64,000 nucleotides of DNA, from NCBI GenBank assembly GCA_027013145.1, contig JALUXX010000016.1, forward strand, positions 148,983 to 212,982, read 5' to 3'. Under the pieces are notes generated by a model. The model was not told the DNA's origin. It worked only from the letters and a program-made list of their open reading frames with translations, and searched no databases. Source of the DNA: Gammaproteobacteria bacterium (lineage in GTDB: Bacteria > Pseudomonadota > Gammaproteobacteria > 21-64-14). The first letter of the stretch is position 1. Every line of letters starts with the position of its first letter. Of the stretch, positions 54,061-58,404 are shown in pieces. The position numbers and the translations under genes were made by a program.

Positions 54061-54104
54061 AAGGGGACAGATTTATTTGGCGTGCCAAATAAATCTGTCC
54101 CCTT
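54061..54104. repeat. Long palindrome, copy 1
   Basis: A 21-bp arm beginning AAGGGGACAGATTTATTTGG is followed after GT by its exact complement, ending at 54104. It shares its core with the copies at 54372 and 55528. Such AT-rich GGGACAGATTTATT elements look like REP-type sequences. Confidence 0.85.
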
Positions 54105-54371: not shown

Positions 54372-54417
54372 AAACGGGACAGATTTATTTGGCGTGCCAA
54401 ATAAATCTGTCCCGTTT
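54372..54417. repeat. Long palindrome, copy 2, breaking orfA
   Basis: A 22-bp arm beginning AAACGGGACAGATTTATTTG, spacer GT, then the exact complementary arm ending CCCGTTT. It follows the last recognisable IS3 orfA codon. Variants of CCGTTTGCC trail on its right side to about 54480. Confidence 0.85.
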
Positions 54418-55527: not shown

Positions 55528-55573
55528 AAACGGGACAGATTTATTTGGCATGCCAAATAAATCTGTCCCGTTT
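55528..55573. repeat. Long palindrome, copy 3 (perfect, 46 bp)
   Basis: Two exact 23-bp arms meet without spacer at 55550/55551 (arm begins AAACGGGACAGATTTATTTG; centre GGCATGCC). It lies between the convergent ends of the peroxiredoxin gene and the DUF202 operon and could also act as a bidirectional terminator. Degenerate GTTTGCC units follow on the right. Confidence 0.88.
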
Positions 55574-55631: not shown

Positions 55632-56816
55632 CTACTCGGCGACGGCCCTGCCGATCCCGTATCGTACCGCGCGTGCCGGCAGGTACCAGAGGGCGCCGTC
55701 GAGGGTCATCAGGAAGCCCGCGCCTACGAGGACATAGTCGAGGTAGCTGTAGGGCCCGGTGCCGAGGACCTGCTTCATGACGAAGCCCAGGGCCATGAAG
55801 GAGATGCCCGTGCGCAGGAAGGCGAGTCCGGTACGCGCCCGCGCGTAGAGGGTGCGGTGGCTGGCGGCGATGGTCCGTTGCGCGGCGAGCATGTTGCGCT
55901 CCCGCGCGAGGTAGGTGCGCTCCTTGCTGGCGGGCACGGGTGGGATGTAGGAGCAGTAGTCTGGGATCGATGCCGCCAGGCGCGCGAGTGCGCTTCTGTC
56001 CTTTGGCTTGGGGGGCGCCTCTTCGAGGTGATAGCGTTCGGTGAAGCGGATCGCCTCCTGAGTGACGTCCACCATGGCGTGGCGCCAGGGGGCACTCATT
56101 CGCCGGCGGCGAATTTTGAGATAGTCGTAGAGCCCGGCGGCGGCGAGGGCGATCCCGACGGCGAGGATGGCGATGTGATGGGGTCTGAGGAGATTCTCGT
56201 GGATGCGCGTGAGGGCGTTCGACAGGGCCACCATCGCCAAGCCCCAGCGCAAGAGCTTCATGGACGTTCGCGCCCGGGCGTGGTCGGTGCGATGGCAGGC
56301 GAGGCGGGTACGCCATAGCGCCATGTTGTTGCGCCATTGGGCGAGCCCGGTGCGCTCGATGCCGATCAGCCGCTTCGCCTCGGCGTGCAGATAGTCCTGA
56401 ATGTACCAGCGCAGGTCCTCGGCCAGGGCGACACGGAACTCGTACCGAGCCGCCGGGACGCACCGCATTACCTGCGCCTTCATCGTCTCGCTGTGCGGGT
56501 CGGCGGCCGCGATGACCGCCGTCTCGCCGAGCATCATCACCGGAAACCATTTTTCGGCCCGGAGCTTGGCGCCGTCGAGACCGGAGAACAGGCGCGTCGG
56601 AACCGGTATGCGCTCGTCGTACTGGATGAAGCGGCAGCCGAAGTGCCGGGCGAGTGCCGCCAGGAGTGTGCAGCGCGGGACGCCGAGGTCCTTCAGGAGT
56701 ACCCTTTCCAGCTCGACGCCGCGGGCGTCGGCGCCCTCCCGGGCGGCGGCGAGCTGCTCCGGCGTGAGGACGCCGTCCTCCACCAAGGTAACGTAGGGAG
56801 TCGGTTCAGTTGTCAT
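55632..56816 (-). CDS. GspE/MshE N-domain protein with two DUF202-like modules
   Basis: A 394-residue protein. Residues 8-143 resemble the N-terminal domain of type II secretion/pilus ATPases (T2SSE_N or MshEN): LVEDGVLTPEQLAAA, VLLKDLGVPRCTLLAALARH, FPVMMLGETAVIAAADPHSE. No ATPase follows. Two DUF202-like modules do (about 153-245 and 300-390). Each has a helix with R-T pairs every seven residues (ERTYLARERNMLAAQRTIAA) followed by two hydrophobic helices (GISFMALGFVMK; YVLVGAGFLMTLDGALWYLP). It overlaps the upstream gene by 11 nt. The function is unknown; I infer a membrane protein that may sense a nucleotide through its N-domain. Confidence 0.75.
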   Translation of the reverse strand: MTTEPTPYVTLVEDGVLTPEQLAAAREGADARGVELERVLLKDLGVPRCTLLAALARHFGCRFIQYDERIPVPTRLFSGLDGAKLRAEKWFPVMMLGETAVIAAADPHSETMKAQVMRCVPAARYEFRVALAEDLRWYIQDYLHAEAKRLIGIERTGLAQWRNNMALWRTRLACHRTDHARARTSMKLLRWGLAMVALSNALTRIHENLLRPHHIAILAVGIALAAAGLYDYLKIRRRRMSAPWRHAMVDVTQEAIRFTERYHLEEAPPKPKDRSALARLAASIPDYCSYIPPVPASKERTYLARERNMLAAQRTIAASHRTLYARARTGLAFLRTGISFMALGFVMKQVLGTGPYSYLDYVLVGAGFLMTLDGALWYLPARAVRYGIGRAVAE

Positions 56817-58404
56817 GGTGGAAGGAGAGCCGCTCCCAGGAGACGGTCGGCTCGCTGTAGTCGGGGTGGACGATCTCGAAGTCGCCGGTGCAGAAGGGCG
56901 AGCGCCGCTTGAGCCGTTCCGCCGGCAGGGCCCAGCGCAGGCCGTCACCGATGAGGTACAGACCGACGACGACGAGCAGGACGTCGAACGCCGCCCAGGG
57001 TGCGTTCCCCCCGCCGAAATAGACGAACAGGCCGGCGCCCACTGCCATGATGCTGAAGCCTGTCCGGATGAAGGCGGCCCCGGTGCGCGAGCGCGCCAGC
57101 AGGGTGCGCAACATCGACATCGCGTTGCGCCGGTCGGCGAGTACGGTGCGCTCCAGTGCCAGGCCGGTGGTGGCCCACACCCCGGGTTGTGCGGGAGGGG
57201 ACGAGGCTTCGGCCGCCTGATCGCGGTTCAGGGTCGTGTACAGGCACAGGGAGGGGAAGATGAGATCCCAGGGGCCCTTCTTCCCGCTTGCCCTGGCGAT
57301 GGTCTCGCGTCCGATGTCGGCCGCCTTCCTGCCCGGGAAATACCAATAGAACCCTTCCGCCAGCATGAGCGTGCCCGCGACGATCAGGGCCCAGTCGAAC
57401 ACCGTCCACAGTCCCGGATCGAACTGGCGCAGGAAGCCGATACCGATGCCGACGAAGCTGACTCCGGTGCGGCCGAAGGCGAGGCCGGTCCGCGCCTTGG
57501 CCATCATCGTCCGCAGGTAGGCCTGCACCGTCCGCTCTTCGGCGATGTTGAGGCGGTCGTTGGCCAGAAATCGCCGTCGTTCGACCGGCGCGAGCGAGTC
57601 CCAGTCCTGCCGCAACGCGGCCGCGCCCTCCACCACGGCGCTGCGGCCGAAATGCATCTCCCCGCCGGGATCGGAGACCTCGAGTGAGGAAAAGCCCTCC
57701 GGCACTTCGTAGAGCGGGTAGGGTTTGATCTCCCGCGTTTCGCCGCGCACCGGCAGGTACCAGAACAGACCATCGGCGATGGCCGCGGCTCCCAGGATCA
57801 GCAGCGGAATCTCCACCGCGAGCAGGTCGCCGGCACCGAACAGCCTCAGGAGCACGACGGCGATACTCACGCAGGCGAGCCCGGTACGGGTGAGGGCGAG
57901 CCCGGTGCGGCTGCGCGCAAACTGCGTCCGTTGGACGCTGTAGCGGGTGCGGACGATGGCGAGATAGGCCCGCGCCTTGGCCAGCGGCGTCCTCCCCGCC
58001 GACGCGGGGCAACCGGGATTCACATCCCAACTGTTTTCGATGAGCCGCACGAGGTCGGGTCGCGTGGCGACCCGGAAATCGATCGCGTCGACCCCGAGGA
58101 CCTCGCGGATGCGCCGGTTCAGCCCGGGGTCGGCGGGGTCGCAGGCGACGACCTCTGCGCGGTCGCCGCCAACCGACAGCGGCATCCACAGTTCGGATCT
58201 CAGTGTATCGAGGTCCAGGTGTCGCAGGAGGTCCCGTGGTACGGTCAGATCCTCGTCGTATTCGACGGCCGGACAGCCGTAGCGCCCGGAGAGGCGGGCG
58301 AGGATTTCATGTTTTGGCGGGTCCGGCTGACGGGTCGGTTCTTCCGGGCGGGGGCCCCCGGGGGCGGCGGCCTGCCGAGTGTGCTGTTCGCGCTCGCGGG
58401 TCAT
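56806..58404 (-). CDS. GspE/MshE N-domain-like protein with three DUF202-like modules
   Basis: A 532-residue protein, paralogous to the downstream gene. Residues about 30-130 look like the second half of a T2SSE_N domain (LSGRYGCPAVEYDEDLTVP, LWMPLSVGG, EVVACDPADPGLNRRIREVL). Three DUF202-like modules start near 141, 281 and 415. Each has a basic R-T heptad helix (ERTVQAYLRTMMAKARTGLA) and two hydrophobic helices ending in FYWYFP- or LFWYLP-type motifs. The start codon has no clear ribosome-binding site. No catalytic motif is seen. Confidence 0.75.
   Translation of the reverse strand: MTREREQHTRQAAAPGGPRPEEPTRQPDPPKHEILARLSGRYGCPAVEYDEDLTVPRDLLRHLDLDTLRSELWMPLSVGGDRAEVVACDPADPGLNRRIREVLGVDAIDFRVATRPDLVRLIENSWDVNPGCPASAGRTPLAKARAYLAIVRTRYSVQRTQFARSRTGLALTRTGLACVSIAVVLLRLFGAGDLLAVEIPLLILGAAAIADGLFWYLPVRGETREIKPYPLYEVPEGFSSLEVSDPGGEMHFGRSAVVEGAAALRQDWDSLAPVERRRFLANDRLNIAEERTVQAYLRTMMAKARTGLAFGRTGVSFVGIGIGFLRQFDPGLWTVFDWALIVAGTLMLAEGFYWYFPGRKAADIGRETIARASGKKGPWDLIFPSLCLYTTLNRDQAAEASSPPAQPGVWATTGLALERTVLADRRNAMSMLRTLLARSRTGAAFIRTGFSIMAVGAGLFVYFGGGNAPWAAFDVLLVVVGLYLIGDGLRWALPAERLKRRSPFCTGDFEIVHPDYSEPTVSWERLSFHHDN

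Follow-up and report, generated by a model that had tools for sequence, protein, structure and literature searches.

What might be the function of two overlapping genes that each join an N-terminal domain of the MshEN type to several copies of the membrane module DUF202, a widespread family for which we know of no established bacterial function? We addressed this question for a gene pair, A and B, in a 64,000-nucleotide stretch of gammaproteobacterial DNA (the whole of which we call the window). Our tentative answer, which we rate at somewhat short of an even chance, is that A and B together make up a ring of five VTC-like units, with an Arg-lined bundle that binds or passes a phosphate-type anion, under the control of the N-domains and, in Desulfobacterota, of a two-component system.

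Both genes lie on the minus strand, gene A at 56806..58404 (532 aa) and gene B at 55632..56816 (394 aa); they overlap by 11 bp, with the ATG at 56816 being the best placement for the start of B. The two proteins are 34% identical across the N-domain and first two modules, i.e. they are the overlapping paralogues that the original prediction described. Each is 84% identical to the corresponding protein of a congener, and the substitutions relative to that congener fall mostly at third codon positions (67/39/139 by codon position in A, 43/27/110 in B), indicating that A and B are maintained coding genes. No sigma-70-like promoter was found 5' of the pair. Beyond the genes themselves, three perfect 38-base palindromes, GGGACAGATTTATTTGGC-NN-GCCAAATAAATCTGTCCC, occur at 54064-54101, 54376-54413 and 55532-55569, where they flank a peroxiredoxin-like gene, the last copy lying about 60 bases beyond gene B; when the whole genome was searched for exact matches, these three copies were the only ones.

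The original prediction had proposed an HMM search, structure prediction of each protein alone and a survey of genomes as checks, and the first two agree with its reading of the domain content. Pfam matched MshEN in A (2.4e-10, 40.7 bits) and B (4.3e-7, 30.3 bits) above the curated cut-off of 23.1, and DUF202 in A (3.8e-14, 53.3 bits, three stretches) and B (1.5e-6, 29.0 bits, two stretches) above the cut-off of 23.4, while both predicted models contain the N-domain fold of MshE, XpsE and PilB. No secretion ATPase domain was matched in A or B by Pfam or NCBIfam, the NCBIfam matches being limited to the N-domain shared with PilB. The idea of a membrane assembly whose N-domain has parted from its ATPase is supported. 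A has exactly three of the DUF202 units, first counted as "two or three", and B exactly two.

Each module comprises an Arg array, TM1 and TM2, and all are encoded on the minus strand. In A, module 1 spans residues 138-220 (57745..57993; array R138-R173, 6 Arg), module 2 residues 277-372 (57289..57576; array from R277, 6 Arg), which includes the top DUF202 stretch of A (298-356), and module 3 residues 419-501 (56902..57150; array from R419, 5 Arg). In B, module 1 spans residues 155-239 (56100..56354; array from R155, 6 Arg) and module 2 residues 300-393 (55638..55919; array from R300, 6 Arg; Pfam DUF202 322-369). Every module opens with a helix in which Arg recurs with a period of exactly seven residues, mostly as R-T-x-L-A-x-x, and this pattern continues into TM1. 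These arrays are far beyond chance: A contains 17 pairs of Arg seven residues apart compared with a mean of 5.5 in 2000 shuffles (maximum 13), and B contains 13 compared with a mean of 4.8 (maximum 12). The arrays and the Arg stripe that they form are the strongest feature of the pair; the original prediction mentioned neither them nor the kinase and receiver partners that we describe below for other genomes.

When the heptads were pooled, the conserved helix face was found to be L-R-A-T with Arg central, and the remaining three positions varied freely, which suggests that this face is a packed or lumen-facing side. In AlphaFold models built from alignments of 3 and 2 rows, whose confidence is low to middling (mean pLDDT 61-63), the array and TM1 of each module form a single continuous helix of 50-56 residues that is followed by TM2. 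The hydropathy profile and these low-confidence models give two membrane helices per module, in which case every linker would lie on the cytoplasmic side.

The position of the arrays connects the pair to yeast VTC, a pentamer of three Vtc1, Vtc3 and Vtc4 with a channel lined by five TM1 helices (PMC9911596). The basic pore residues of VTC (Vtc1 K24/R31, Vtc4 K622/R629 and Vtc3 K694/K698/R705/R709) are required for vacuolar polyphosphate, and the channel is narrowest at R31, R709 and R629 (PMC9911596). The pairs K24/R31, K622/R629 and K698/R705 are each separated by seven residues. The start of TM1 in the modules, ..RTGLAF.RTG.., aligns with NERTYLAWIRTA of canonical DUF202 members (an ERT..L.W.RT-type motif). 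A profile of the modules and canonical DUF202 members ranked the four VTC1 sequences top of 177,635 PDB sequences, at weak E values of 0.04-0.08, and aligned VTC1 R31 with the Arg of the module's first RTG. All of the A/B modules thus carry the spacing and register of the VTC pore residues, with further heptads upstream. The weak E values, and the low to middling confidence of the models, count against a five-unit ring. A phmmer search of the whole of B against the PDB gave nothing useful, and Foldseek and VIA-align searches with the helical part listed generic bundles only (syntaxin, ABC transporters, gustatory receptors) and no VTC chain, a result that excludes nothing.

The same arrays could be read without a pore, as coiled coils whose Arg stripe touches acidic phospholipids or an acidic partner, in a complex that shapes or anchors membranes or proteins. 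This reading would account for the helices of single-module relatives of the pair, whose 12-22 heptads make them longer than a channel needs, and for the acidic residues at other heptad positions; the arrays of those relatives, which also contain such acidic residues, may be ordinary charged coiled coils. However, the arrays of A and B enter TM1 in register where VTC has its pore residues, and contact with lipid requires neither perfect seven-residue spacing nor Arg in preference to Lys. The preference for Arg is maintained even in a Lys-rich relative (L117), in which all 22 array positions are Arg (22/22) and the K:R ratio elsewhere in the protein is 28:7. We therefore consider a non-pore coiled coil improbable, though deserving of some weight.

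The genome survey recovered 15 homologous pairs (in Gammaproteobacteria and Desulfobacterota), all of which have kept the 3+2 count, A always carrying three arrays and B two, of 5-7 Arg each (15/15). Homologs of A occur in 14 other genomes, and B always adjoins A except at contig breaks. In a tree of the modules, each of the five positions was monophyletic across both phyla (support 0.82-0.998), which implies that the units are old and separate, as expected if they occupy fixed places in a complex. Modules A2, A3 and B2 grouped together (0.988), apart from A1 and B1, as would be expected if a two-module ancestor had been duplicated and A had then gained module 3. The pair was present in every genome searched of three groups, namely the order of the window (2/2), one other small gammaproteobacterial order (5/5) and one Desulfobacterota family (2/2), and is rare outside them: of 369 genomes of the class 6 carry it, in a phylum sample of 398 the source genome of the window was the sole match at E 1e-10, and 9 of 395 Desulfobacterota gave a long match to A. 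No relatives of the pair were found on plasmids or viral contigs.

The N-domains raise the question of how such a complex might be controlled. The MshEN-like region that had been predicted for each gene is present in both, although in A of the window only its C-terminal half remains (residues 31-128, 58021..58314, minus strand; Pfam 43-123 and Foldseek), the N1 helical bundle being missing. B has both halves, i.e. the N1 four-helix subdomain at residues 4-61 (56634..56807, minus strand; VIA-align) and the C-terminal half at residues 62-146 (56379..56633, minus strand; Pfam MshEN 68-146). Foldseek matched the predicted N-domain of A to XpsE (2d27), MshE (5htl) and PilB (7lko) with a probability of 1.00 in each case, and VIA-align matched N1 of B to PilF GSPIIB (Z 8.9) and MshE 5htl (Z 8.5) with an rmsd of 1.7-1.8 over 57-58 residues.

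In MshE, c-di-GMP is contacted by R9, L10, G11, L29 and Q32 and by their repeats in a second motif (PMC5013675). Binding of this kind lies behind one of the two options in the original prediction, namely that a nucleotide on the MshEN domains, be it c-di-GMP or another, would gate a membrane assembly, and the MshEN matches in both proteins, together with the N1 four-helix fold that B shares with MshE and PilF GSPIIB, speak for it. However, when B was numbered by structural match (B residue equals MshE residue minus 3), the contact positions R9, L10, G11, L29, Q32, R38, G40 and Q61 were all found to be replaced in B of the window: R9-L10-G11 read T, P and Y, L29 is R and Q32 is A, and the second motif lacks both RLG and Q. 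The L29R change is also present in XpsE, which does not bind c-di-GMP. Moreover, A of the window lacks the N1 bundle, none of the pairs has RLG where the motif lies in the N-domain alignment, and an MshE-type ATPase of the same genome, which serves as a positive control, retains RIG...Q and KLG...Q. The nucleotide-binding part of the original prediction is thus not supported; on the motif residues we reject c-di-GMP gating of A-B, and we regard gating by any nucleotide on these domains as very unlikely. A putative role in protein docking is the better reading of the N-domains, and the PilB N-domain in complex with PilZ (7lko) provides a solved precedent for docking by such a domain.

A second candidate for control came from the genome survey, in which the pair had two further neighbors at 9/9 Desulfobacterota loci: a membrane histidine kinase, orthologous throughout, and a lone receiver. 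The kinases are 44-73% identical to P0008 over nearly their full length, including the sensor region, and the stand-alone receivers are 60-90% identical to P0009. At 8/9 loci the two genes are directly downstream of B and co-directional, and at the remaining locus (L012) they are divergent from A. The occurrence of an orthologous kinase at all nine loci seems hard to attribute to chance. Six gammaproteobacterial pairs, that of the window among them, were inspected, and neither this kinase nor this receiver was found nearby; a genome-wide search for the Desulfobacterota kinase in the gammaproteobacterial carriers gave generic kinase-core matches only, and by eye no conserved flanking genes were seen around the gammaproteobacterial pairs.

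Two-component genes are also linked to the single-module relatives of the pair in Desulfobacterota. These resemble A and B in that R-T-x-L-A-x-x heptads run into DUF202 and in their two-component gene linkage, but they differ in having one module, mostly 12-22 consecutive Arg heptads and no MshEN domain; the exception in heptad number is L071, with two runs of four. Proteins with 12-22 perfect heptads are encoded at L117 6257-7069, L116 6040-6846, L118 5280-6083 and L113 5866-6645, and the 22 heptads of L117 are followed by a kinase and receiver of the kind found at A-B. In four others the Arg-heptad DUF202 protein is fused to a C-terminal receiver, and these fusions are always followed by a PPDK_N/PEP-utiliser protein of about 855 residues (L112 67-3697, L114 6436-10050, L115 5726-9353 and L071 6761-10482). 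PPDK_N-type proteins also occur near four A-B pairs (L104, L106, L107 and L111), and in three Desulfobacterota loci (L104, L106 and L111) such a gene is found near A-B-kinase-receiver together with a gene for a membrane protein that by eye is TauE-like. In the Desulfobacterales locus L012 (1-3499) there is what by eye resembles a pst operon for an ABC transporter of phosphate, with the kinase and receiver lying between it and the pair; nothing of the kind was seen at the other loci. Perfect Arg heptads, up to 22 of them in succession, are an unusual helix design in themselves.

Long helices are a usual feature of proteins that transmit signals, and the main rival to an anion-handling complex is a signaling co-sensor or scaffold without transport: the complex would detect an anion or the condition of the membrane, and its long helices would relay the signal toward the kinase and receiver or in the opposite direction. 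The kinase and receiver at 9/9 Desulfobacterota pairs fit this reading, as do the receiver domains fused to single-module relatives. Against it, the gammaproteobacterial A-B is strongly conserved without that kinase, and the strict mid-face Arg, which the modules have in common with the VTC pore residues, points to contact with an anion. We regard the co-sensor as a serious possibility, but hardly a probable one.

For the anion-binding ring, we propose the following mechanism. A and B would be two subunits of one inner-membrane complex, in which the 3+2 modules would close into one ring of five units, as in VTC. Each module's first helix, of about 50-56 residues with Arg at every seventh, would run from the cytoplasm into the membrane as TM1, and the five array helices, lying abreast, would form an Arg-lined bundle or lumen that may bind or conduct a phosphate-type anion, whether phosphate itself or a polyanion such as polyphosphate. 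The MshEN-like N-domains, which would no longer bind c-di-GMP, would be used for docking or gating. In Desulfobacterota the dedicated membrane histidine kinase would phosphorylate the lone CheY-like receiver, which would then control the complex, while in Gammaproteobacteria, including the window, with no such pair nearby, control would come from elsewhere. That the whole amounts to a conduit of five Arg-lined helices under two-component control, equivalent in prokaryotes to a VTC channel that lacks the polymerase, built from a fixed 3+2 tandem pair with a cytoplasmic Arg-heptad extension and set in a wider family with up to 22 heptads, is a possibility that we put forward with some doubt. The pair gives DUF202 a constant count (3+2 = 5), a VTC-channel signature and a genetic link to two-component signaling, and together these make a role for DUF202 in anion handling or sensing directly testable.

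Comparison with VTC (Vtc1/Vtc3/Vtc4; PDB 7ytj, 8i6v and 9umg) shows likenesses in the total of five DUF202 units, in the basic residues spaced by seven where TM1 begins and in the alignment of R31 with the RTG Arg of the modules. The heptad register of the pore Arg and the five-unit total make the link to VTC stronger than first claimed, although the match in unit number could be a coincidence. The differences are that A and B carry their units on two chains as 3+2 rather than on five chains, have two membrane helices per unit (in low-confidence models) rather than three, add two to four Arg heptads, and have MshEN-like N-domains where VTC has SPX and a polymerase domain. A bacterial VTC, in which polyphosphate synthesis is coupled to translocation, would explain the five units and the pore register, but the polymerase domain PF09359 was found in 0/15 carrier genomes while control genomes matched in 3, and neither protein matched SPX in a Pfam scan to E 1. 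We therefore withhold the VTC label from A-B: VTC-like polyphosphate synthesis is contradicted by the missing polymerase domain, and a bacterial VTC in this sense has little left to recommend it. A-B may still translocate polyphosphate made by another kinase.

The single-domain YidH/DUF202 proteins of bacteria, of which the source genome has one copy (G000:C16:292467), share the DUF202 core ..R.......ERT.LAW.RT.., with three Arg seven apart, but have one module with three membrane helices and neither array extension nor N-domain. The MshEN/T2SSE_N/GSPII domains of MshE, XpsE (GspE), PilB and PilF have the same fold as the N-domains of A and B, as judged by HMM and predicted structure, and the c-di-GMP motif is degenerate in A and B as it is in XpsE; the differences are that A and B have no attached ATPase and that A lacks half of the domain. 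In agreement with the original prediction, which knew of no described system with this architecture, a literature search, mostly beyond the reach of subscription papers, found no paper naming DUF202 and MshEN together, and papers with PF02656, DUF202 or "YidH family" do not treat the architecture in their titles and abstract openings. Taken singly, DUF202 and MshEN are known families.
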